In this document: one piece after another, positions 6,010-24,015 of the stretch | How positions within the stretch are numbered: position 1 is the stretch's first letter | Layout of the letters: the number at the start of each line of letters is the position of its first letter | IMG/VR virus record: IMGVR_UViG_3300005253_000644 | Span: 1 to 24,015 of that record | Reading direction: 5' to 3' (one strand) | From: a virus | Length of the DNA: 24,015 nt | Notes under the pieces: generated by a model | Told to the model about the DNA's origin: nothing | Seen by the model: the letters and a program-made list of their open reading frames with translations, nothing else | The model's database searches: none | Made by a program: the position numbers and the translations under genes

Positions 6010-6891
6010 TTACTTTAACCGTTTTCCTATAGGGTTTTTGCCCTTTTCCTTCTCATAGAAGGGTATTCCACCAATCGCCTTACTCTTCATCTCAGTCTCA
6101 GCTGCTTCCAGTTTCATTCTCATCATCGCCTCATGCCTCTTCATCTCCTCAGGCGTGAGTACCACCATCCCCCCACCCTTCTTTGCCCTTGCATTAACCA
6201 TCCCCATCTGCACCCAAAGGGGTTGGTTCTCCCTTGTCACTCCCCTATGGTTGAGCCAAACGTCGAAGTGAGCATAATAGTCCATTTTCTTGTCAAGCAC
6301 TCTATCAGCAAACCAACTATCAGTGGGTGCTTGATTATCAGAGGAGAACCAGGGCTTTTTTAGGTTCTTAAATACTGACGTCTTTATCATTGTGAAACAG
6401 AATGGAACAAGGTCAACTTTTACAACTCCCTTTCTCTGTTCGGGAGGCACCTCATATAAGCGTGCTGGACCCTTCAAAATAGGTTGGTCTGCTACCTTAG
6501 TTTTAGCATCATACCTTCTAAATGCACACATTGAATAGGGGAAGCCACTTGCGTGCATTATGCCCGCTACCACATCCCTATCCGCATCCAACAGCTTCAA
6601 AAAGTCATCCACCGTTACATCATAAATGTCGTCATCCATCAGCAATAAGTGTGTGCACCCACTGGCAACAGCCATATCTGCAAGCTGTTCCTCCGCTTTA
6701 TGAACGGGCATTCTATACATAAATCTATATCCTACATGGAATTTCCTCCCCTTATGTTTATAGGTCATTAGTGCTGACCAAAAATTGAGGAAGCTCTCTG
6801 CAAATTCGTGAGTCCATGCAAGTATAGGAACACCTATCAATATCTTTGGAACCTCAACCTCTTTCGCCTTACTTCTTGGTTTTTTCGCCAC
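6010..6891 (-). CDS. GT-A (family 2-like) glycosyltransferase
   Basis: 293 residues from the GTG at 6891, chosen because AGGAGGT lies seven bases upstream. The frame is open to 6990 but the extension overlaps the YkgJ gene. A Rossmann-like start, KILIGVPILAWTHEF, is followed by THLLLMDDDIYD with the DDD triad near residues 86-88, the metal and nucleotide-sugar site of GT-A enzymes. A later DVWLNHRG supplies a plausible metal-binding histidine. The C-terminal 50 residues are helical and basic. It would transfer a sugar from an NDP-sugar in the host cytoplasm. Its position among head genes suggests glycosylation of a virion protein, but lipopolysaccharide modification is also possible. It overlaps the upstream gene by 23 bases. 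Confidence 0.82.
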   Translation of the reverse strand: MAKKPRSKAKEVEVPKILIGVPILAWTHEFAESFLNFWSALMTYKHKGRKFHVGYRFMYRMPVHKAEEQLADMAVASGCTHLLLMDDDIYDVTVDDFLKLLDADRDVVAGIMHASGFPYSMCAFRRYDAKTKVADQPILKGPARLYEVPPEQRKGVVKVDLVPFCFTMIKTSVFKNLKKPWFSSDNQAPTDSWFADRVLDKKMDYYAHFDVWLNHRGVTRENQPLWVQMGMVNARAKKGGGMVVLTPEEMKRHEAMMRMKLEAAETEMKSKAIGGIPFYEKEKGKNPIGKRLK

Positions 6892-7174
6892 GCCTATACC
6901 TCCTACAATAATGTTGTTTGCAACGCATAGGTCTAATCTTATACATTCTGCATCGCTTGCTTTTATCATCAAATGCCTGGCACTCGCCATACACCTTTGC
7001 CGAAACCGCTGAAATGCTTTTATAGCTTACTTCAAACGCACTACCAACAGATGATAGAATGTTCAGTGCTGTCCTACCTGTTCCAGGGTCCTCTGGGGAC
7101 AAAAACATTTCAAACTCGTTACAGCAATCGCCACACTTTTTGCACACATAACTCGCCGCAATTTTCTTCGCCAT
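6869..7174 (-). CDS. YkgJ-family cysteine-cluster protein
   Basis: 101 residues. The signature CKKCGDCC (about 11-18), then CQAFDD-KSKRC, then KIRPMRCKQHYC matches the YkgJ/CxxCxxCC family (PF03692), whose members are predicted to chelate zinc or an iron-sulfur cluster. The spacing of eight cysteines plus the RP-x-x-C turn is intact, so the fold is probably functional. The biochemical role of the family is poorly defined. It is coupled to the glycosyltransferase by a 23-base overlap and sits among virion genes, which hints at a modification pair. AGAGGG precedes the ATG. Confidence 0.85.
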   Translation of the reverse strand: MAKKIAASYVCKKCGDCCNEFEMFLSPEDPGTGRTALNILSSVGSAFEVSYKSISAVSAKVYGECQAFDDKSKRCRMYKIRPMRCKQHYCRRYRRGEKTKK

Positions 7175-8074: not shown

Positions 8075-9073
8075 CTATGCAGCTTGACTTGTTAACACAC
8101 CATGACTCCTTCTCTTATCAACCCACACGTTTCCCCTTTGAACAATCTGGGAAACAACATCTTTGAATTGATTCGGGATCTCTTTCCATGGACCCATAAC
8201 CATATTAACAGCAGGGTCAATACTGAACCCTATATGGTTTCTGTCTATGAAATAGGTGTATCCCGTGGTGCATTTTGGACTCCAAATCCAAACCCTACCC
8301 TTGAAGGTAATGTGGTCCAGACCTAAGCTTACTGCTTCCTTATTCACCACCTGCACCCTTTCAAGTGCTTCCGACTCGCCAAGTTCATACGTGGTTTGGT
8401 CCGACACCATACAATCCGTTTTCCCCCATCTACTACAGGTGTTGAATAGATTGGTCATGTCCGACTCGCCATATACAGAAAATGCTCCACTAGAGGTCTT
8501 TTGTTGATTCTGCCAAATCTTGTTACCATCAACATCGACAATTGTGGATTGGTCTAAGCCATGAACTGTTACACTATCGGTTGGTGCATCATCAATGAGG
8601 TATGGAAGTCCATTGTAGTCGTCAACGCTTGTTCCGCCCGTGTCCGCCCAGAGGGCATCTTCTACTTTTAACATGAGGGCATCACGCATTGTGTCTATCT
8701 TTGCGTTCATCAGCTTCAAATGAGCTGTCTTACTTCCCCCATTCACTTTATCATCCACCCAATATCTCACGAGTTGATCGCCGAGGTTCTTCCAATAATC
8801 GTATGCAATGGATAGTGGATCGAAGTCACTAATTGTGAAGGTAGCACCTTTTCCAAAGAACTTGGCTGTATTGGATTTATTCACCCGTAGAGGAATTTCC
8901 AACCTTCTACCATCAGTTGACTCCATCTTTACCATACCCTTGCTTTTCCATAATGCAAGAAGTCGGTTCTCCTCGAAGACTTGGTCTACCACCCCTTGAC
9001 GCCTTTTTGCCCACGTGCTTGTGTATAAGCCATTAAGCGTTTCAGTGAGTGTTCCAGCAGTTGCTAATGCCAT
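8075..9073 (-). CDS. Major capsid protein (HK97-fold candidate)
   Basis: 332 residues. The N-terminal TETLNGLYTSTWAKRRQGVVDQVFEENRLLALWKSKG is the arm segment typical of one class of environmental phage capsid proteins. It is followed by an E-loop-like beta region (GRRLEIPLRV, KFFGKGATFTI) and a helix with TMRDALMLKVEDALW. The C-terminal domain contains FKGRVWIWSPKC and a final DVVSQIVQRGNVWVDKRRSHG. It follows an acidic scaffold-like gene, as capsid genes do, and the length is normal for this class. The family is inferred from pattern and order, not from a search. Confidence 0.8.
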   Translation of the reverse strand: MALATAGTLTETLNGLYTSTWAKRRQGVVDQVFEENRLLALWKSKGMVKMESTDGRRLEIPLRVNKSNTAKFFGKGATFTISDFDPLSIAYDYWKNLGDQLVRYWVDDKVNGGSKTAHLKLMNAKIDTMRDALMLKVEDALWADTGGTSVDDYNGLPYLIDDAPTDSVTVHGLDQSTIVDVDGNKIWQNQQKTSSGAFSVYGESDMTNLFNTCSRWGKTDCMVSDQTTYELGESEALERVQVVNKEAVSLGLDHITFKGRVWIWSPKCTTGYTYFIDRNHIGFSIDPAVNMVMGPWKEIPNQFKDVVSQIVQRGNVWVDKRRSHGVLTSQAA

Positions 9074-10082: not shown

Positions 10083-10316
10083 TCATATATCTAGGGGCTT
10101 TTTAACATCATCCCTCAGCACAAGCCCCCTCTTATCTAATTCCCTTTTAAGCTCCTCTTTATCCCTCACCTTCACTGGCTTATCCCCAAGTCCCCAGTGC
10201 CATCCACTATAGTCCTTACTCTTTCTCTCAACATGCCTTTCCCTCACTTCTTTATGCTTACCCCTATCTGCGAGCCAATTATCATAGTCATAATTATCTA
10301 GGCCATATTTCCCCAC
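10083..10316 (-). CDS. Small portal-coupled protein, unknown
   Basis: 77 residues from a GTG at 10316 that overlaps the portal stop as TAGTG, with only a weak AGGA upstream, so it probably depends on translational coupling. The N-terminus is rich in Tyr, Asp and Trp (YGLDNYDYDNWLADRG). Residues 37-70 (SGWHWGLGDKPVKVRDKEEL) resemble a short segment often seen in proteins encoded next to phage portals, ending in a helix with KRELDKRGLV. No metal site or membrane segment is visible. A head-assembly role is inferred from position. Confidence 0.68.
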   Translation of the reverse strand: MGKYGLDNYDYDNWLADRGKHKEVRERHVERKSKDYSGWHWGLGDKPVKVRDKEELKRELDKRGLVLRDDVKKPLDI

Positions 10317-12040
10317 TATACTAGTCCTGGGAACCTGCTTGCCCCAGGTCCTCCCTGACCCATGCCTGCAAACTCCTGAAATCCTATTGGCTGTTCGGGA
10401 CTATTACCTTTACCTGGCCGAGGGAATAACTGCTTCGGGTCTATCCAATCAAAATGGGATGCATAGGACTCAAGAAGATATTGCATGTTCATTCCTGGGA
10501 TCTTTGCCGCAAGTTCCATAAATTTCTCTGCCTCAGTCTTTTGGGTCATCTTGTTCTCAGGAATCGATTCCTCGGGACTCACTTTAAACTCAAACTCACC
10601 TTTTATCTGTTTTCCAGTAAATCTGACCCAATGCCTAGCACCATCTTGACCAATAACGTCAATCACCTTTTCCGTAGACCAATTGGCGAATATCAGTTGA
10701 TTCCATGCCCTCACTACTGATGACAACATGTCAGCCATCGTATCTCTCCGCTCGTCTACTCTTATCTGAGAAGCAGCCCTTACAATCTCTGCTTCGTGGG
10801 CAGTTCTCCTACCCCCAGGGGCTTCAAAGGCACCGAGTTGGTTCCTGGAAAATCCAATTATCTCCCTCATGTCCTCACGTGTTTCCCTTGCCGAAGCATA
10901 TAGGTCAGGTGGTACGTGGCTTTGAAATAGGGTAACAGCTTTCCTTATGTCCATGTGCTGACCTGAATCTACTGCAACTGCTGCTTTCACGTCTGGGTCA
11001 AGTAACTTGGATAGCTCGTCTTTCCCTAAAACGCCCTTATCATATAATATCTTAATAAGGCCTGCCCTTCTGTGCTTCGCAGCCATTGTTCTAATGTCGT
11101 TTATTTCCAATTGCTGGGGTTCGATGTATTTGGCATCGGGCGTCCACCAGAAGAAATCGGGGTCTTCGTTAAAGCCTAGAACACGGGCTGGGAGGCCCTC
11201 CATCTGCAAGTAGTCAAAATCATTACGCAGGAACTTGTCATGATCCAATGAGAGAACGAATACCCTACCTGAACGTTGATCATGGATTTGCCACAATTCC
11301 ACCCAATTCATATCTTCTGTTTCTTGAAACTTCTGTATCTCCCTATCAGCCTGAGGGGTTTGTTCAGGTCTTACCAAGTTGCTTGTGTATACTCCTTTCA
11401 AGCCCTTTTTGCCCGCACTTGGATACTTAGGGTCTTCTATTATGTCTTTAATGGGGCGCATCTTACGAAAGGCAAACCATTGGGCTTCGTTCCATCTCTG
11501 TGTCCCCCATGGGACTATGAAATCCTCTGGATTGCACCTGATGAACCAAGGCATTCCAGGTTTAACATTATAATTGTATTCTATCCGTTCCCCCTTTTTG
11601 TTGAAGGAGGTGAGGGAGCTATCTTCAAACTCATCCGATGCAAATTCGGGCTTATAACCATATTCCGTGTCATATCCAATAATCCCTGGACCCCTACCGC
11701 AAAGGAAACTATCCAGTGCCATCGACTTCATCTGTTCCTTCAGCCCAAGCTCCCTTATGAGTTGATTATCTATTCTCTCCACCACTCGCGCTTGCATTGT
11801 GAGGCCTGGTTTCATCCCAGTCACTAATACTCTGGGGTTGCGGAAGTATATCTGAGGTATCATTGCCCGTGCATATGAGTACATTATATTAACATATATC
11901 TGGTTTTTCTGATAAAAGGTACCCCTATAATAGTTCTTAAAGCGTCTCCAATCCTTGGATTTCCCAAATACAGACCTATATCTAATCCCTTTCTTTATTT
12001 GGTCCTTCCAATGATCCAACGGCTTCTGTTTTTCTGGCAC
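10316..12040 (-). CDS. Portal protein
   Basis: 574 residues from a GTG at 12040, with AAGGGG upstream. It follows the large terminase and precedes the scaffold and capsid genes, the canonical portal position. Visible portal-like parts are the N-terminal helical region (WRRFKNYYRGTFYQKNQIYVN), the clip/wing beta region with PWFIRCNPEDFIVPWGT, and the long stem helices around 355-450 (MDIRKAVTLFQSHVPPDLY, then REDMREIIGFSRNQLGAF). Twelve copies would form the DNA entry ring at one capsid vertex and dock the terminase. The C-terminus is Gly/Pro-rich and flexible. Length is within the normal range for portals. Confidence 0.85.
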   Translation of the reverse strand: MPEKQKPLDHWKDQIKKGIRYRSVFGKSKDWRRFKNYYRGTFYQKNQIYVNIMYSYARAMIPQIYFRNPRVLVTGMKPGLTMQARVVERIDNQLIRELGLKEQMKSMALDSFLCGRGPGIIGYDTEYGYKPEFASDEFEDSSLTSFNKKGERIEYNYNVKPGMPWFIRCNPEDFIVPWGTQRWNEAQWFAFRKMRPIKDIIEDPKYPSAGKKGLKGVYTSNLVRPEQTPQADREIQKFQETEDMNWVELWQIHDQRSGRVFVLSLDHDKFLRNDFDYLQMEGLPARVLGFNEDPDFFWWTPDAKYIEPQQLEINDIRTMAAKHRRAGLIKILYDKGVLGKDELSKLLDPDVKAAVAVDSGQHMDIRKAVTLFQSHVPPDLYASARETREDMREIIGFSRNQLGAFEAPGGRRTAHEAEIVRAASQIRVDERRDTMADMLSSVVRAWNQLIFANWSTEKVIDVIGQDGARHWVRFTGKQIKGEFEFKVSPEESIPENKMTQKTEAEKFMELAAKIPGMNMQYLLESYASHFDWIDPKQLFPRPGKGNSPEQPIGFQEFAGMGQGGPGASRFPGLV

Positions 12041-12164: not shown

Positions 12165-12187
12165 GTAAGTTCAATAATTAAACTTAC
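12165..12187. repeat. Dispersed AT-rich palindrome, copy B
   Basis: This is the most symmetrical copy: GTAAGTT and AACTTAC arms with one mismatch in 11 pairs around the centre at 12176 (core GTTCAATAATTAAAC). It contains the stop codon of the large terminase (12184-12186), just as copy A contains the LamG stop. Confidence 0.8.
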
Positions 12188-13836
12188 GCCCAGTCTGCAA
12201 CTGGTTCAAGATCTTCATTCGTGAAGTTGTCCCCACTCTCCTCTGGCATATATTGGTCAAGAAACCCCTTACCCTTTTTGCCCTCCATCGCCCACTTCAG
12301 GAACTTATCCATATCAGCCCTAAACACATACTCCTCTTTGCCCTTTCGAACTATAGCCCTGGGTTCCCCTGGCCTCGCTATTTGCAATTGGTATGCAGCA
12401 GCATCAAGCATATCATTCCTAACCGACCTATCATTAGGCACGTAGTTGCAGAACTCATCTATGAAGTCCTTGTGTTCTGGTCTACAATGGATTGCCATGT
12501 TGGATGCAATAGGTTGCAATGCCCTTATACGGAGGTCTTTTGAAACTGAGCTCTCTGTTCGCAGAGGTGCCATATGCAACCAACCCCTATTTTCCATCTC
12601 TTTCCTTAGGAAGTGTAATAGGGCTTTTTGGTAGTAGACTGTTTCAACACCAATCTTTTCGGGCTCATATATTCTATTATGTTTATATATGATATCTATG
12701 ACCTCACTTGGATTGAACCTTCCCACATCGTATCCAAGTACCCACATATGATTCCTGTCACACCATCCACAGGTGATTATAACAGCCCTTGAACCGTAGT
12801 TTTTCCTCTTACTCTCATTCCACCCAGCAAGGTCCACCGTGGTGAATACTCTCATGGATTCGGGCAGTTCGCCCTGACCCACATAATATTGTAACCACTC
12901 AGGTTTGAACAGCATATCCTCAATCGCCATAGGTCTATTCAAGTACTGTGTCGCAAACATATATGGACCTTGACTTGACCTAATCCTATCCAGCACCTCA
13001 CGCCCATACTGCTCTGGCCAAGTGGGTTTCCCATCTATAGTCCCATCATCTGTTGCTGATATATCCAGCACCTTATACTGCTTTTCATGAGTGCGTATGT
13101 GGTCCACTACATCATGCCTCGCCCACCTAGTTCCAATATTATGTATGCGTGTATGTGGACCAGGCACTAATAGGGAAGAAGCAAGTTTGTGCCACCCTAT
13201 TGCCTTGTCTATATCATCCTGGTTGGGCTGAAGTTCCTTCCCCGTGAGGTCGTCTTTCTTTGCATATATGATGTCATCTTCTATAATAAGGTCGTAGTGA
13301 CGAGACACCGTGGAGCCCCCAATACTACCAGCCTCAAATGTGCTTTCGGTGTAATCCTCACTCCTACTAATACATGCTTCTGAGTCACTCCATTTAACTT
13401 TGTTGAAGTTGGGAGGTATGACCTCAGGGAACAATGCTTGTAGGGATCTATTCCTCTCATATATTTTTCTAATTAAGTTTATAATCTTATGCGCATTAGC
13501 TACGACGTTAGATACTATTAGAATTCGGGCATTTTGCCCTAGCCCATAAAACTTATCATCCATCCCAATCCCCTCAGGGAATTCATCCCCCCGTTCTCTA
13601 GGCAATGTAACCCACACGGAAAATGCAATAGAGCCTATCCAGGTTTTAACAAACCCTCTTGGTAATGTCAGTTGTTTCCACCTATCTGGTTCTTCAAGGA
13701 ACCTGCAAACGCCCTTATGCAAACCCTCAGTGAGGTCATCATAGCCCATAACTGCGATGCAGAAGTTAAACAGGCTACTCAGACATCTCCTGCGTAATTC
13801 TAAGCGTGCTGATTCCTTCAATCTCGTTAGGTCCAT
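12184..13836 (-). CDS. terL: Terminase large subunit
   Basis: 550 residues. The ATPase domain shows a variant Walker A, LPRGFVKTW (58-66), a Walker B with LIIEDD (183-188), and a GTRW coupling-like motif near 235-238. The RNase H-fold nuclease supplies FTTVDLAG (Asp 335), IGVETV (Glu 398) and RNDMLDAA (Asp 475). Together these cut concatemeric DNA and power packaging through the portal. The Walker A has Val where relatives often have Gly or another small residue. The start at 13836 lies 62 bases inside the small-subunit gene and has a poor ribosome site, so translation may depend on coupling. Confidence 0.93.
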   Translation of the reverse strand: MDLTRLKESARLELRRRCLSSLFNFCIAVMGYDDLTEGLHKGVCRFLEEPDRWKQLTLPRGFVKTWIGSIAFSVWVTLPRERGDEFPEGIGMDDKFYGLGQNARILIVSNVVANAHKIINLIRKIYERNRSLQALFPEVIPPNFNKVKWSDSEACISRSEDYTESTFEAGSIGGSTVSRHYDLIIEDDIIYAKKDDLTGKELQPNQDDIDKAIGWHKLASSLLVPGPHTRIHNIGTRWARHDVVDHIRTHEKQYKVLDISATDDGTIDGKPTWPEQYGREVLDRIRSSQGPYMFATQYLNRPMAIEDMLFKPEWLQYYVGQGELPESMRVFTTVDLAGWNESKRKNYGSRAVIITCGWCDRNHMWVLGYDVGRFNPSEVIDIIYKHNRIYEPEKIGVETVYYQKALLHFLRKEMENRGWLHMAPLRTESSVSKDLRIRALQPIASNMAIHCRPEHKDFIDEFCNYVPNDRSVRNDMLDAAAYQLQIARPGEPRAIVRKGKEEYVFRADMDKFLKWAMEGKKGKGFLDQYMPEESGDNFTNEDLEPVADWA

Positions 13837-17933: not shown

Positions 17934-18323
17934 ATGAAGCGAAATATGACAAAACAGGAAAAGCTTATATACTTAGCAGGCATTATAGATGGTGAGGGCT
18001 ATGTATCTATTCTAAAGAAATGTGATAGGGAAAGCCCTCGGTATCAATCATACGTTGCCGTATCTAATACACATCACGAGTTGATTAGATGGATTAACGA
18101 GGAATTTGGTGGCAGTGTCCACCATCAGCCCATCGAACAGCACAGAAAACCAGTAATGATGTGGACAATTTGTGCAAACCAAGCAGACGGTCTAATAAAA
18201 AAGGTTTATCCATACCTATTGGTCAAGCGAAAACAGGCGCAAACACTTTTCTTTTTTGAGTCGTTGAAAGATCGTGAAGGAGGAGAAAAGTTTTGGTTTG
18301 AAATGAAGGAGTTGCATAGATGA
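17934..18323 (+). CDS. LAGLIDADG-type homing endonuclease, single motif
   Basis: 129 residues; AAAGGTGG precedes the ATG. YLAGIIDGEGYVSI (13-26) is the LAGLIDADG helix with the catalytic acidic residue, followed by the strand-turn-strand pattern SYVAVSNTHHELIRWINEEFGG that contacts DNA. With one motif it would act as a homodimer cutting a near-palindromic site. It stands free, neither in an intron nor fused to another protein, and starts three bases after the preceding stop. It shares an ATGA overlap with the next gene, so it is well integrated into the operon. The likely role is its own spread into related genomes. Confidence 0.85.
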   Translation: MKRNMTKQEKLIYLAGIIDGEGYVSILKKCDRESPRYQSYVAVSNTHHELIRWINEEFGGSVHHQPIEQHRKPVMMWTICANQADGLIKKVYPYLLVKRKQAQTLFFFESLKDREGGEKFWFEMKELHR

Positions 18324-20060: not shown

Positions 20061-20357
20061 ATGGAAAGGGTAAAGTCAATGATGTATTCCACAGATAAGG
20101 ATTCAAAGTTTGCAAAGGACTCAACATATAAGATGAAAATCATGGGGTGTAGGAGGGTTATGAACTCGGATATGTTTGTGTCCGTTACCAAAGAGGGAAA
20201 TCATGTTGAAGTCACGGGTTTCACCTCAGGTGTTGGGGGGAGTGCACTCATGCTTCTTGCATTGATTAAACAGTTTAAAACCATAGCTGATGACTCGCCC
20301 ACTGCTGATACACTGATAGCACTGGGCGCACTTAAGACAGCACTGGGGAACTTATGA
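20061..20357 (+). CDS. Small protein with a Gly/Ala-rich helix, unknown
   Basis: 98 residues; AAGGAGG precedes the ATG. Residues 1-55 are a beta-prone domain (STYKMKIMGCRRVMNSDMFV). Residues 56-98 hold a hydrophobic Ser/Gly/Leu stretch (SGVGGSALMLLALIKQF) that could be a buried helix or a weak membrane segment, then a second helix. Its stop overlaps the radical SAM start as ATGA. Function is unknown. Confidence 0.65.
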   Translation: MERVKSMMYSTDKDSKFAKDSTYKMKIMGCRRVMNSDMFVSVTKEGNHVEVTGFTSGVGGSALMLLALIKQFKTIADDSPTADTLIALGALKTALGNL

Positions 20358-21427
20358 AGAAAGGACACTACTTATTTGATGGTAATAAGCTTCTATGGCA
20401 TATGGATAGGGTCCACGAACACTACAGGGGTAAGAAGAGAATTTATCCCCTCCATATAGATATAGGCGCCACTAAGGTCTGTAATGCCAAATGCACATAT
20501 TGTTACGGGCTTTTCCAGAAGATGACGGGCGAAATCATACCAGCTGACGTATTGGTTCAATTATTTAAGGATGCCCCAGACCTCGGCATCCGTTCCCTCA
20601 CACTCACGGGCGATGGGGAACCCACGCTTAATCCTGCCGTCTACCAAGCCATATATGAGGGTCACGCAAGGGGACTTGACATAGGGTTTGCAACCAACGG
20701 CATCTCACTCAATAAGGCACGCATTACAACTCTACTTGAGTCCTGCACTTGGCTTCGCTTCAACCTATCTGCGGTTGACAAAGGATCATATAAAACCATA
20801 CACGGTGTTGATCGGTGGGAGCGAGTGCAGGACAACATCATCACCACCACAAAGTTGAAGAAGAAGATTGGGAGTAAGTGTACAATAGGGTTGCAAATGG
20901 TTCTTATACCTGACTGTTTGGACCAAGTTTTGCCCGAGTACAAATTCGCCATAGCCCATGGACTTGACTACTTTGTTATTAAACAGTTTAGTGACCCAGA
21001 TTGTAAAGAGATGAGTCAGTTTGACCTGAGTTGGTATAATAATGTGGAAACGGAAGTTATACTTAAAATGGCCGAATTTGCCTCAACAGAACAGACGAAG
21101 ATTATACCTAAGTGGAATACTATTGCCAGTAAGGGTAAGAGGCCATATGACCACTGTGTTGATTGCCCCCTAATCTTTCAAATCAGTGGCAATTCTAAGT
21201 GTTACCCATGCGGTTTCTTGTTTAACAATGAAGAATACTGTTACGGTGATTTAAAGAAAAATACCCTTAAGGAAATTTTGGATTCAGAACATTACTGGTC
21301 TATAATTAGAAAAATGAGGTATGAGTTTGATGTCCACACCCAATGTGTTGGGTGTTGCAGACACGATTCAACAAATGCATTTGTTTGGAACTATTTGCAT
21401 GCACCAACACATTTGAGTTTCATATAG
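20354..21427 (+). CDS. Radical SAM enzyme with SPASM-like C-terminal cluster domain
   Basis: 357 residues. CNAKCTYC (43-50) is the CxxxCxxC motif that holds the 4Fe-4S cluster binding S-adenosylmethionine. LTLTGDGEPTLNP (82-94) fits the GGE-type loop, and a TIM-barrel pattern follows. The C-terminal domain places cysteines at 268, 271, 283, 286, 296, 331, 334 and 335, and YGDLKKNTLKEILDSEHYW is typical of SPASM auxiliary-cluster domains. Such enzymes make radical modifications of peptides, sugars or other small molecules. Start overlaps the previous stop as ATGA with GGGGAA upstream. The substrate cannot be read from sequence. Nearby genes include an E1-alpha-like enzyme. Confidence 0.9.
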   Translation: MKKGHYLFDGNKLLWHMDRVHEHYRGKKRIYPLHIDIGATKVCNAKCTYCYGLFQKMTGEIIPADVLVQLFKDAPDLGIRSLTLTGDGEPTLNPAVYQAIYEGHARGLDIGFATNGISLNKARITTLLESCTWLRFNLSAVDKGSYKTIHGVDRWERVQDNIITTTKLKKKIGSKCTIGLQMVLIPDCLDQVLPEYKFAIAHGLDYFVIKQFSDPDCKEMSQFDLSWYNNVETEVILKMAEFASTEQTKIIPKWNTIASKGKRPYDHCVDCPLIFQISGNSKCYPCGFLFNNEEYCYGDLKKNTLKEILDSEHYWSIIRKMRYEFDVHTQCVGCCRHDSTNAFVWNYLHAPTHLSFI

Positions 21428-21470: not shown

Positions 21471-21674
21471 ATGGCAAGGAAAAAGAAGTCAGAGGAACTT
21501 GTGTTCAGGATTGAAGTGGGCCTTACGGAGGAGTATATGTTGAAGCTCTTTCGCATCCATGACCACTATAAATGTAGTGCAATATTGGCAAATATAGTGC
21601 AGAATAGATTAGAGAAGGGGATAGATATTGGTAAGGAGGTGGATGGGGATGAAAAAAGCTTCTACAAAAGTTAA
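21471..21674 (+). CDS. Ribbon-helix-helix DNA-binding protein candidate
   Basis: 67 residues; AAAGGA precedes the ATG. A basic start (MARKKKSEE) leads into a strand LVFRIEVGL, a helix TEEYMLKLFRIHDHY, a turn at KCS and a second helix AILANIVQNRLEKG. That is the order and size of ribbon-helix-helix repressors, which bind palindromic DNA as dimers through the paired strands. The gene starts 14 bases after palindrome copy D, so autoregulation through that site is a natural inference. It overlaps the following gene by 26 bases. The family assignment is structural guesswork from pattern. Confidence 0.62.
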   Translation: MARKKKSEELVFRIEVGLTEEYMLKLFRIHDHYKCSAILANIVQNRLEKGIDIGKEVDGDEKSFYKS

Positions 21675-21984
21675 ACCATACTTAGGGCTCAAAGACCATG
21701 AGGCAACCTTAGTTGTTACCCTTGGGGACCTTGTGGATCGCTTGTCCATCATCAACTTAAAAATATGGCACTTAGAAAATGACATTAGAAAGGGCGGAGA
21801 AGGGCGATTTTCCCTCGAACAAGTTGGTAAGATTGCCCTTAAGGTTCGTGACCTCAACAAAGAGAGGGTTGCTTATAAAAATGCCCTCAATAAAATTGAA
21901 GAGAAGTATTATAATGATATAAAGGTTGACCATAGGTCTGCACATAGAGAGGATAATAATGAGAGAACCGTGGACTCCAGATAG
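21649..21984 (+). CDS. Helical partner protein upstream of the E1-alpha-like gene
   Basis: 111 residues from the ATG at 21649, nine bases after AAGGAGG. An in-frame TTG at 21628 overlaps the ribosome site, and the ATG at 21643 is too close to it. Residues 20-90 are helical with VTLGDLVDRLSIINLKIWHL, then RDLNKERVAYKNALNKIEEK. I have a weak recollection of this LSIINLKIWHLE pattern in small proteins encoded beside sugar and TPP-enzyme genes (DUF4254-like). It overlaps both neighbours, so it is probably co-produced with the E1-alpha-like enzyme. Function is unknown. Confidence 0.65.
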   Translation: MKKASTKVKPYLGLKDHEATLVVTLGDLVDRLSIINLKIWHLENDIRKGGEGRFSLEQVGKIALKVRDLNKERVAYKNALNKIEEKYYNDIKVDHRSAHREDNNERTVDSR

Positions 21985-22597
21985 ACTGATTAAGTTTGAA
22001 CTGAAGGCAAAAGATCTGTTTGAAAAGGGCGAAATCAACTGCCCCCTCCATTTATCCTGGGGAAATGAGGAACAGCTTATAACTCTATTTGAATCCATCA
22101 CCCCAAATGATTGGGTCATCAGCACACACCGAAATCACTACCACTACTTGCTAAAAGGTGGAAGTTCTAAGAAGCTTATGGATGAGCTCTTGGGTAAACC
22201 CAGTGGCATATGCGGTGGATTAGGAAGGTCAATGCACATATTTGACAAGTCCATCAACTTCATAAGCTCAGGGATAGTCGCCGGCGGGTGTGCAATAGCC
22301 TGCGGGATCGCAATGGCCATCAAAAAGGAAAACAAAGGGAAGAAAACTCGCCCAATGGTTTGGGTTTTCATTGGTGATGGGGCGGAAGATAGTGGGCATT
22401 TCATGGAAGCCCTTAGGTTCTCCATTTCCCGTGAGTTACCAACTACCTTCATTATTGAAGACAACGATCTTTCCATTGACTCGACCAAGAGGGATAGATG
22501 GCACAATCATAGTCCAATCAAGAGTCAGAGGGTTATTAGGTATGAATATAAGAGGAAATGGCCTCACGTAGGTGTGGGGAAGTTTGTATCATTTTAA
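21959..22597 (+). CDS. Thiamine-diphosphate enzyme, E1-alpha-like core
   Basis: 212 residues from the ATG at 21959 (GAGAGGATAATA upstream). STHRNHYHYLLKGG (55-68), LLGKPSGICGGLGRSMHI (77-94), SSGIVAGGCAIACGIAMA (103-120) and the thiamine-diphosphate motif GDGAEDSGHFMEAL (139-152) ending at EDND (167-170) follow the alpha subunit of 2-oxoacid dehydrogenase E1 step by step. Metal and cofactor ligands look intact. Family members usually run 320-400 residues and need a beta subunit, so this is a compact form. The ending YEYKRKWPHVGVGKFVSF may be a natural terminus of a short branch used in sugar pathways. The substrate is unknown, and no beta subunit is in the window. Confidence 0.82.
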   Translation: MREPWTPDRLIKFELKAKDLFEKGEINCPLHLSWGNEEQLITLFESITPNDWVISTHRNHYHYLLKGGSSKKLMDELLGKPSGICGGLGRSMHIFDKSINFISSGIVAGGCAIACGIAMAIKKENKGKKTRPMVWVFIGDGAEDSGHFMEALRFSISRELPTTFIIEDNDLSIDSTKRDRWHNHSPIKSQRVIRYEYKRKWPHVGVGKFVSF

Positions 22598-22613
22598 ATG
22601 GAAGGGAGGAGAA

Positions 22614-22682
22614 GTGATAGGGCGATTTCTCGTGTGGCTAAGGAAATGGAGGAACCTATATGAATATCTTAAGAATGATTAG
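22614..22682 (+). CDS. Possible 22-residue peptide overlapping the lipoprotein start
   Basis: A GTG at 22614 follows GGGAGGAGAA and reads IGRFLVWLRKWRNLYEYLKN, an amphipathic basic-aromatic peptide, before TAG. A competing frame from ATG 22598 gives a 21-residue product without a ribosome site. Either could act by coupling the lipoprotein to the upstream gene. Evidence is only the ribosome site and composition. Confidence 0.28.
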   Translation: MIGRFLVWLRKWRNLYEYLKND

Positions 22683-22755
22683 CGCTATGTGTTTGATAGT
22701 CGTGTTGTGTGGTTGTGCACATTCCCACCAGCGTGCCATCGATGATAATTGGTGA
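22660..22755 (+). CDS. Mini-lipoprotein (31 residues), possible outer-membrane spanin-like
   Basis: ATG at 22660 follows GGAGGAACCTAT. The product begins NILRMISAMCLIVVLCGCAH, a basic start, hydrophobic core and lipobox ending LCGC, so a signal-peptidase II lipoprotein with a mature part of only about a dozen residues is predicted. Phage lipoproteins this small are often Rz1-type outer-membrane spanins or lysis/exclusion factors. No inner-membrane spanin partner or proline-rich mature part is visible, so that role is weak. The stop is followed immediately by a strong hairpin. Confidence 0.6.
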   Translation: MNILRMISAMCLIVVLCGCAHSHQRAIDDNW

Positions 22756-22779
22756 GGGGTTACTCACTTGAGTAACTCC
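22756..22779 (+). terminator. Hairpin after the lipoprotein stop, weak terminator or attenuator
   Basis: GGGGTTACTC and GAGTAACTCC form a ten-base stem with one G-U pair around ACTT, directly after the TGA at 22753-22755. Only TTTC follows, so full termination is doubtful. A second inverted repeat, AGACCTG/CAGGTCT (22793-22822), stands just after it. Confidence 0.45.
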
Positions 22780-22798
22780 TTTCGGACCACTTAGACCT

Positions 22799-22978
22799 GT
22801 GAGGGATGTAGAGGTCAGGTCTTCTGCAGGAGGGGTAGAGGAAGAATTGCCTAAGGGATATAGAGTAACTAAAGAACTATTAGAAGGCGATTGGAAGCTA
22901 CCCCTCGTGTGGCAGGTAGCAGCAGAGGAAGTGGCTAATCAGTTAGAACATTATACTGTGAGGAGTAGTGCTATATGA
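22799..22978 (+). CDS. Small acidic helical protein (59 residues)
   Basis: The frame from GTG 22799 encodes a product with EEELPKGYRVTKELLEGDWK and PLVWQVAAEEVANQLEHYTV, a sensible amphipathic sequence. It ends in TGA overlapping the next ATG, the coupling style used across this module. The start is uncertain: no good ribosome site is seen, and the frame is open back to 22772. It could also be translated as a continuation of the lipoprotein by frameshifting across the hairpin. Confidence 0.5.
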   Translation: MRDVEVRSSAGGVEEELPKGYRVTKELLEGDWKLPLVWQVAAEEVANQLEHYTVRSSAI

Positions 22979-23409
22979 AAGATAATGAATGGCAAGTAGT
23001 AAATCGTGAGCTATCTAAGGCGTTGAAGAAGGCGGGATTCAAGCAGGAAGGGATTTTCTGGTGGGTTTTTCAAGGGAATGAATGGAAGTTAAGGTCTGCT
23101 GAATGGCTGCATAATTGGATAGGCGGTCAGGAATTAGATATATGTATTGCAGACTTGATAGAAAGAGGGACGGCTGTTGTCGCCCCTACAGTAGCAGAGT
23201 TGGGGGGAGTATTACCAGCTTATTATCCTTTAAATAATTTTGATTATAACTATGTTTCCATTAAAAAAGTCTCTACGGCATTTAAGGAATTTTGGGTAAG
23301 CATGTATTTTTGTGGAACACAATGTATAGGGCAAGAATTTAAAGCTGACACTGAAGCCAATGCCCGTGCAAAAATGTGGCTCTATCTTAAAAAGGAAGGA
23401 TTACTTTAG
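22975..23409 (+). CDS. Hypothetical phage protein of an early-region type
   Basis: 144 residues; GAGGAGTAGTGCT precedes the ATG, which overlaps the previous stop. The pattern is DNEWQVVNRELSKALKKAGF at the start, then TAVVAPTVAELGGVLPAYYP and a helical ending ANARAKMWLYLKKEGLL. This recalls short proteins of phage and prophage genomes with a PT-x-AEL-x-x-xLP motif and an ARAKMLIYL ending. No function is known for them. There are several aromatic residues and three cysteines, but no metal site or membrane segment. Confidence 0.72.
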   Translation: MKDNEWQVVNRELSKALKKAGFKQEGIFWWVFQGNEWKLRSAEWLHNWIGGQELDICIADLIERGTAVVAPTVAELGGVLPAYYPLNNFDYNYVSIKKVSTAFKEFWVSMYFCGTQCIGQEFKADTEANARAKMWLYLKKEGLL

Positions 23410-23418
23410 GAGGTAGGT

Positions 23419-23541
23419 ATGAGATGTTTAGAGTGCGATTGTGAATTCATAAGGGATTATAAATGTCCTCATAATTGCGATTGGTGTAAAGATTATGACC
23501 CTGAAGAAGGTGAGGAGGAAAATGACGATAAGAATTGCTAA
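23419..23541 (+). CDS. Mini zinc-ribbon-like protein (40 residues)
   Basis: ATG at 23419 follows AGGAGGTAGGT. Cysteines in MRCLECDCEFIRDYKCPHNC and DWCKDYD are arranged C-x2-C-x-C then C-x3-C-x2-C, enough for a zinc site, with an acidic tail. The frame overlaps the start of the next gene by 20 bases. It is one of several cysteine-rich mini-proteins in this module. Function is unknown. Confidence 0.6.
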   Translation: MRCLECDCEFIRDYKCPHNCDWCKDYDPEEGEEENDDKNC

Positions 23542-23707
23542 AACAGGATATTATAGTGGTTTATTTAATTTATTTTTTGTAGAACAATTTAGTGTTAGAA
23601 AATATTGGAGTGGTAAAATCATTAATATTGGTTTAGATTCTATTTATTTTGAGCTAGATTTTAGAAAGAATTGGATTAAAGATATGATAACAGGGAAACC
23701 AGAATGA
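23522..23707 (+). CDS. Small AT-rich gene, unknown
   Basis: 61 residues from the ATG at 23522, with GTGAGGAGGA just upstream, chosen over an in-frame ATG at 23495 that lacks a ribosome site. The product is rich in Ile, Lys, Phe and Tyr (GYYSGLFNLFFVEQFSVRKY, then SIYFELDFRKNWIKD) and probably forms a small beta barrel. The gene is visibly more AT-rich than those to its left, as is the next one. The overlap of its stop with the next ATG suggests they arrived or travel together. Confidence 0.62.
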   Translation: MTIRIAKTGYYSGLFNLFFVEQFSVRKYWSGKIINIGLDSIYFELDFRKNWIKDMITGKPE

Positions 23708-24015
23708 TTAAGGAAAAATATAAAGAATTACAAAAAATTTGGCATAAAGAGAATCCTTGGGCACATCATTGCTACTCAGCCAAAACTAGATGCACCAATC
23801 CTAATGTAAAAGATTATTCTAGATATGGAGGAAAAGGCATTAAATTCTTAATGACTGTAAGCGACTTTAGATATTTATGGCTTAGAGATAGGGCATACAA
23901 GATGGAAAAACCTAGTATAGATAGAAAAAATGGTAAAGGAAATTATACTTTAAAGAATTGTAGATTTATAGAAAATTTTTTAAATAATAGTTTGGCACAC
24001 AGAGGAGAAAAATGT
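23704..24015 (+). CDS. HNH/AP2-type homing endonuclease, N-terminal part (runs off right edge)
   Basis: 104 codons without a stop from the ATG at 23704, overlapping the previous stop. Residues RCTNPNVKDYSRYGGKGIKF, then SDFRYLWLRD, then PSIDRKNGKGNYTLKNCRFI reproduce the RC-x-NP/YGG-x-GI/DR-x-x-x-x-G-x-Y-x-x-x-NCR pattern of phage-borne HNH-like endonucleases that often carry AP2 DNA-binding domains. The catalytic Asp-Arg and Asn-Cys-Arg parts are intact up to the edge. The gene is very AT-rich compared with the virion genes, consistent with recent transfer. The C-terminus is not visible. Confidence 0.65.
   Translation, partial: MIKEKYKELQKIWHKENPWAHHCYSAKTRCTNPNVKDYSRYGGKGIKFLMTVSDFRYLWLRDRAYKMEKPSIDRKNGKGNYTLKNCRFIENFLNNSLAHRGEKC

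Follow-up and report, generated by a model that had tools for sequence, protein, structure and literature searches.

A compact E1-alpha-like protein in a phage genome is the cofactor half of a minimal two-domain thiamine-diphosphate enzyme family encoded beside a radical-SAM protein or a zinc alcohol dehydrogenase

E1-type alpha/beta pairs have been described among sugar-modifying genes. AviB1/AviB2 and Pau11/Pau12 are pyruvate dehydrogenase (PDH)-like pairs for which the addition of a two-carbon branch to keto-sugars has been proposed (PMC4425429, PMC4753412). In aco clusters, the E1 alpha/beta genes of acetoin dehydrogenase adjoin the gene for 2,3-butanediol dehydrogenase, which makes the alpha-hydroxyketone substrate of the former (PMC6595428). 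The compact family described here is like the E1 components of PDH and branched-chain dehydrogenase (BCKD) in that its PP half corresponds in fold to residues ~32-268 of E1-alpha and its Pyr half to residues ~1-177 of E1-beta, and it retains the GD...N motif, the activating Glu and the catalytic His. Unlike alpha2beta2 E1, it has a compressed alpha C-terminal part and lacks the beta C-terminal transketolase domain; its two parts measure 200 + 170 aa, compared to ~325-400 + ~325-345 aa in E1, are often joined in one chain, and no E2 was seen. The occurrence of an E1-type pair among sugar-modifying genes is shared with AviB1/AviB2 and Pau11/Pau12; unlike the members of the compact family, Pau11 and Pau12 are full-length (325 and 345 aa). 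As in the aco clusters, the compact pair can adjoin an alcohol dehydrogenase; the aco systems differ by a full-length E1, the presence of E2 and E3 and the lack of a sugar pathway. Two cyanophage proteins annotated as ‘transketolase central region-containing protein’ (SSM2_198 of S-SM2 and AIR93527.1 of P-TIM68) belong to the same family with 42-43% identity to the protein studied here, but they are PP-Pyr fusions and adjoin a Zn alcohol dehydrogenase (ADH) instead of a radical-SAM protein. A search of titles and abstract openings, with subscription journals mostly outside its scope, yielded no published account of a compact phage E1/thiamine-diphosphate (ThDP) family associated with radical SAM.

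The window, i.e. the whole stretch of DNA analyzed, is a virus record of 24,015 bases from IMG/VR. It encodes a terminase (12184-13836), a portal protein (10316-12040) and a major head protein (8075-9073), all on the minus strand, and the phage setting of the PP gene is therefore real. Within the structural gene block there is also a glycosyltransferase-like gene (6010-6990, minus strand; phrog_1574, E 2.7e-9; phrog_1579 glycosyltransferase, E 0.0096). The PP gene itself, encoding the compact E1-alpha-like half of a split ThDP enzyme, lies at 21959..22597 on the plus strand and comprises 212 codons plus stop with an ATG start, immediately 5' of which AGAGAGG is seen by eye. It shares a 26 nt overlap with the upstream ORF (21628..21984, plus strand, start codon uncertain) for a small DUF4254-like protein, whose match to DUF4254 (E 1.3e-4) is below the cut-off. 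Several of the closest relatives carry a homologue of the DUF4254-like gene close to PP, and tblastn matches were obtained in 9 fetched loci.

The top profile match of the PP protein was Pfam E1_dh (E 3.7e-22; 79.1 bits, the cut-off being 22; aligned over positions 6-170 of the 300 in the profile), whereas transketolase models scored far lower and Transketolase_N was not the best match. The NCBIfam equivalog PDH_E1_alph_y gave a score of 127.5, far short of its cut-off of 393.85. The protein also matched positions 5-200 of 405 of PHROG_34187 (E 1.7e-51), which is annotated as ‘unknown function’. Catalytic and cofactor positions are H31, R58, H62, G139-D140, N169 and H203. The cofactor motif, with GD at 139-140 and N169, reads GDX28N and falls within the published range GDX25-30N. 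An AlphaFold model based on 36 family members (pLDDT 94.2, pTM 0.91) aligned with human PDH E1-alpha over 202 of 212 residues (Z 20.5, rmsd 2.4), covering residues 32-268 of the 362-residue chain; the C-terminal part of E1-alpha is thus absent from the PP protein. With its motif and histidines complete, the protein is the intact cofactor half of an E1-type ThDP enzyme. An E1-alpha-like ThDP protein on a phage had been proposed by an earlier, sequence-only reading of this DNA, and the E1_dh score, the GDX28N motif, the histidines and the terminase, portal and head genes bear this out.

Relatives were collected by a scan of IMG/VR, which returned 354 candidate stretches, 339 of them encoding relatives, the best 80 of which were fetched; a further 36 loci came from scanning 84,980 prokaryote genomes. 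Compact and full-length forms were divided at 200 bits on the PP profile, and 20 full-length E1 loci were set aside. Three repeats (L002, L003 and L006, repeating L016, L017 and the window, respectively) were removed before counting. The resulting number of 103 refers to loci and not to contigs, since L091 and L100 share one contig. Compact PP domains scored above 200 bits, and their proteins measure ~200 aa, rising to ~400 aa when fused; full-length E1-alpha proteins reached 78-134 bits at lengths of 320-700 aa. When 37 cluster representatives were placed in a maximum-likelihood tree with five full-length E1-alpha proteins, the latter were separated from the compact family with 100/100 support. 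The sequence-only reading had also stressed the unusual shortness of the protein. At 212 aa it is indeed short compared to full-length E1-alpha, but this is no peculiarity of the window phage; compactness is the norm across a large family found in viruses and microbes.

Three family members from Prochlorococcus single-cell genomes (L096, L097, L099) grouped with cyanophage P-TIM68 and may represent phage DNA in the assemblies. One archaeal MAG contig carries two different compact PP-Pyr pairs ~10 kb apart (L091/L100), with radical-SAM genes around them. Two candidates were rejected as members. The ‘transketolase’ of Campylobacter phage CP21, the top BFVD fold match, scored just 9.6 bits on the PP profile and had no Pyr match in 50 kb, and the match in Acinetobacter phage MD-2021a belongs to an ordinary aco operon. 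The CP21 protein (192 aa, ‘putative transketolase’; L126, 25189-25767, minus strand) is a distant solitary PP-like protein that is conserved in 11 Campylobacter phage records, with several radical-SAM genes nearby.

Conservation of the active site across the family is nearly complete. H31, R58, H62, G139, D140 and H203 are invariant in all 103 loci and N169 is found in 102 of them, S-SM2 having D at the aligned column. Provided that the last five residues align without gaps, H203 corresponds by the aligned ends to H263 of PDH-alpha and H291 of BCKD-alpha. Two residues of the Pyr domain, the Glu at the place of PDH-beta E59 and the His that the aligned ends put at H128, are invariant in all 34 clusters having this domain. 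A comparison of the window PP gene with five relatives gave pN/pS values of 0.29-0.38, with pS (0.84-0.92) near saturation. Relatives that are 42-64% identical to the window protein show the same compactness; some are encoded by a gene of their own, others are joined directly to a Pyr half. The test for a decayed fragment set beforehand by the sequence-only reading was therefore negative, and a pseudogene or frameshifted fragment is out, because relatives are equally short or directly fused and the residues are conserved.

Compact members consist of a PP part of ~200 aa and a Pyr part of ~170 aa, encoded by one fused gene (~400 aa) or by two genes. The Pyr gene or domain was found in 98 of the 103 compact loci (30 fused, 68 separate). 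Among relatives with a PP and a Pyr gene, L016 and L017 are the closest. The Pyr-half profile matches residues 5-178 of the 331 residues of PDH E1-beta. A model of the fused L095 protein (pLDDT 85.1, pTM 0.89) aligned through its Pyr half with residues 1-177 of 325 of E1-beta (Z 23.8), while the whole chain aligned with human transketolase only to residue 477 of 620, the model ending with the Pyr domain. Likewise, Pfam searches with the Pyr halves of L017 and L001 and with the fused L095 protein detected Transket_pyr and no Transketolase_C; the beta subunit of the full-length locus L114 has both. As both Pfam and structure alignments stop at the Pyr domain, the transketolase C-terminal domain is absent from the compact enzyme. 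This domain, which comes after the Pyr domain in PDH E1-beta, has a role in E2 binding, and the compact enzyme, lacking it, probably serves no 2-oxoacid dehydrogenase complex.

The window belongs to the five compact loci without a Pyr gene, together with L014, L018, L038 and L054. In these, the PP gene lies 1,421, 2,473, 186, 947 and 1,180 bases, respectively, from the contig end, and the contig ends on the side where relatives carry the Pyr gene. No Pyr gene was present elsewhere on the whole contigs of L014, L018, L038 and L054. A search of both window strands for a Pyr gene gave no more than tblastn matches of E > 1 to three Pyr proteins and no match to the Pyr HMM, in agreement with the statement of the sequence-only reading that no beta subunit is in view. 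At the expected place (22598..24015, plus strand) three ORFs are found instead (22975-23409, 23495-23707 and 23704-24015), for which no match existed in the fetched loci. The last one, interrupted by the window end and without a profile match, presumably resembles an HNH/AP2-type homing endonuclease as judged by eye, and it could stand between the PP gene and a Pyr gene farther right. Exact-pattern scans of viral contigs returned 0 matches for an overlapping contig that would prolong the window rightwards. Since the PP gene is near a contig end in all five Pyr-less loci, the Pyr gene of the window phage is probably located beyond base 24015, most likely as a separate gene of ~170 codons just to the right. 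A partner outside the window had been suggested before; this remains probable given the 98 of 103 loci, but we expect the partner to be Pyr-only and to lack the transketolase C-terminal domain of a normal E1-beta.

Beyond what the sequence-only reading had noted, the module has a further partner, which is either a radical-SAM protein or a Zn-ADH. In the window this is the radical-SAM protein ‘rS1’ (20354..21427, plus strand; 357 aa) with a SPASM/twitch-type C-terminus (Radical_SAM 4.2e-13, SPASM 1.5e-4). When profiles made from neighbor clusters were searched within the fetched flanks of the 37 PP clusters, ADH (14 clusters) or rS1 (23 clusters) was found in 35 of them; both were found in two clusters and neither in two, the latter with contigs of ~5 kb. 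Hence the two are alternatives in 33 of 37 clusters (Fisher p 3.8e-6, uncorrected for shared descent). Taking the nearest gene as partner, rS1 was assigned to 21 clusters and ADH to 14, and the label switches at least three times on the tree. In the two double-partner cases it is the ADH gene that lies directly next to PP-Pyr, and the radical-SAM match is weaker and more distant. The weak rS1 match in L100 (76 bits, 7.7 kb away) may belong to the L091 module. Moreover, both partners occupy the same slot, as seen from the orders Pyr-rS1-PP (L009, L019) and Pyr-ADH-PP (L067), and from the gene before the fused PP-Pyr gene, which is rS1 in L095 and ADH in L021 and S-SM2. A tandem arrangement is present in L028 (7995-12392), where an E1-type PP-Pyr-rS1 module is followed by a transketolase-type compact PP-Pyr pair (Transketolase_N, Transket_pyr) and another rS1.

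The radical-SAM enzyme BtrN, whose auxiliary cluster has four cysteines, catalyzes the two-electron oxidation of an aminocyclitol alcohol to a ketone (PMC9012708). In an alignment of 17 rS1 proteins, C43, C47, C50, C268 and C286 were invariant and C331 and C335 were present in at least 90%; rS1 thus has the CX3CX2C motif and four cysteines of auxiliary-cluster type, as in twitch-type, BtrN-like radical-SAM dehydrogenases. In related antibiotic pathways, the BtrN-type step is performed by Zn dehydrogenases. As BtrN and Zn dehydrogenases both do it, alcohol oxidation is the simplest task common to rS1 and ADH, and by this analogy both partners may oxidize an alcohol. Two results count against this assignment. 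In a phmmer search of window rS1 against the PDB, BtrN was not among the matches listed; the best of these were other radical-SAM enzymes with weak scores, and the list comprised MoaA, anSME, BlsE-type proteins and others. Moreover, rS1 fell far short of the cut-off of its nearest named radical-SAM model, that of a tungsten-cofactor maturase.

The wider neighborhood was analyzed by a Pfam scan of 90 proteins of 200-900 aa encoded within 2.5 kb in 36 loci, with ADH and rS1 left out. Other radical-SAM proteins (12), PfkB kinases, GT9 glycosyltransferases, epimerases and SDRs (7 each) and B12-binding proteins (5) were recorded; no lipoyl or E2 family was among the 25 most frequent of the 58 families. 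The P-TIM68 PfkB kinase and the L051 nucleotidyltransferase had the two domains of the heptose enzyme HldE as best matches, below the equivalog cut-offs. Two close relatives of the window, L014 and L018, carry a GT9 gene between rS1 and PP. The PP-gene neighbors in the window are rS1, the DUF4254-like gene and small ORFs, and for this reason a glycan role rests on the relatives. That no glycosyltransferase, kinase or epimerase gene adjoins the window PP gene counts against such a role, as does the finding that heptose-type genes mainly accompany the fused/ADH branch and not the branch of the window.

The 20 full-length E1 loci served as a control. None had a strong ADH, and rS1 was found in four (L106, L108, L114, L118; Elusimicrobia and other MAGs), always beside the alpha gene and directly upstream; the rS1 association thus extends beyond the compact form. 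L108 and L114, loci of Elusimicrobia, are nucleotide-sugar loci with HldE-like and GmhA-like genes, and L108 has CDP-glucose and GDP-mannose enzymes in addition. The compact form may therefore be a reduced version of a cellular pairing of full-length E1 with rS1.

In many viruses, and in some microbes as well, the pair has a sugar-oxidizing enzyme and other sugar genes beside it, and the building of an unusual sugar therefore appears probable. The explanation we favor, to which we assign about an even chance, is that a split minimal E1-type ThDP enzyme cooperates with alcohol oxidation to provide an unusual sugar for a phage-directed glycan. The PP subunit encoded in the window and a Pyr subunit of ~170 aa with the activating Glu would jointly form the ThDP site, as is usual for the PP and Pyr domains of other ThDP enzymes. 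The dehydrogenase, rS1 here and Zn-ADH in other lineages, would convert a hydroxyl of a sugar or polyol to a ketone. The ThDP enzyme could then attach to this ketone a two-carbon acyl carbanion derived from a 2-oxo acid, as has been proposed for AviB1/AviB2 and Pau11/Pau12, or the new alpha-ketol might serve as its donor in the style of acetoin dehydrogenase or transketolase. Where present, the SDR would reduce the product, and an HldE-like kinase and nucleotidyltransferase followed by a GT9 or GT2 glycosyltransferase would put it into the glycan. Of the earlier suggestion of an auxiliary role in glycans or nucleotides, the glycan or sugar part is thus probable, whereas nothing among the neighbors examined speaks for modified nucleotides. 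More tentatively, and with somewhat less than an even chance, we propose that the compact proteins of phages, huge phages, CPR bacteria and archaeal MAGs are an unnamed minimal two-domain E1-type ThDP family, whose alcohol-oxidizing partner has been swapped between a Zn/NAD ADH and a radical-SAM dehydrogenase independent of oxygen, and whose product, a branched or chain-extended sugar new to phages, is destined for viral glycans.

A PP and a Pyr domain without a third is also the minimal ThDP architecture, and sulfopyruvate-type decarboxylases (SPDC/PPDC) are recognized as separate superfamilies; with the E1-type His and Glu conserved, the enzyme might be a stand-alone two-domain 2-oxoacid decarboxylase of the sulfopyruvate-decarboxylase kind, releasing an aldehyde without branching any sugar. 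This is unlikely, as it explains neither why 35 of 37 clusters have a dehydrogenase partner nor why sugar-activation genes are present; sequence and fold are E1-like, and sulfopyruvate decarboxylase was absent among the matches listed. Strict pairing with an oxidizing enzyme is equally unaccounted for if the pair is a split mini-transketolase that moves ketol units to make a heptose backbone (sedoheptulose-type supply) while the dehydrogenase acts elsewhere. Some loci contain HldE-like, GmhA-like and HAD-phosphatase-like genes, which would suit such an enzyme, as would the true transketolase-type PP/Pyr pair, itself with rS1 next, that follows PP-Pyr-rS1 in L028; the window protein, however, is E1-type with much lower transketolase profile scores, and we rate this possibility as low as the decarboxylase.

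The closest fold and sequence matches are PDH/BCKD E1-alpha and E1-beta, and the histidines of reductive acylation are kept. One His pair of the E1 family doubles in this reaction in PDH/BCKD, so that an E2-like acceptor is possible, a point that counts against the favored explanation and would suit a true dehydrogenase E1, an auxiliary metabolic gene product joining a host E2 and feeding central metabolism with acyl-CoA. Given the missing transketolase C-terminal domain, the lack of a lipoyl/E2 family among the 25 most frequent neighbor families and the missed NCBIfam E1 equivalog cut-off, we regard this as very improbable. Hardly more probable is a leftover in the window phage, with the Pyr partner lost and the PP subunit idle or non-catalytic. 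The Pyr gene is indeed absent from the 1,421 bp downstream and the rest of the window, and also from the 2,473 bp downstream of PP in L014, a close relative, which again counts against the favored explanation. Nevertheless, all catalytic positions are kept, the frame is intact, pN/pS is 0.29-0.38, and the window ends soon after the PP gene, while the Pyr gene lies 376-869 bp from PP in L001, L011, L016 and L020.

If the sugar-building explanation is correct, the family illustrates the extent to which an E1-type enzyme can be reduced, with neither third domain nor E2 left, and still remain under selection, and it would represent a natural minimal scaffold for ThDP carboligation. PHROG_34187 and the cyanophage ‘transketolase central region’ genes would obtain a function, and phages in many waters would be predicted to make sugars possibly beyond the repertoire of their hosts. 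The alternation of radical SAM and Zn-ADH would, in addition, make the reaction of the rS1 family directly testable.

In L013 (1870-3900), as well as in the relatives L011 and L012, an in-frame LAGLIDADG intein interrupts the rS1 gene exactly at the third cysteine of CX3CX2C. In the window, the ORF at 17934-18323 is LAGLIDADG-like (Pfam E 0.064, below the cut-off), and its sole homologue among the fetched loci (L001, 1755-2162) is located between the PP and Pyr genes of L001.
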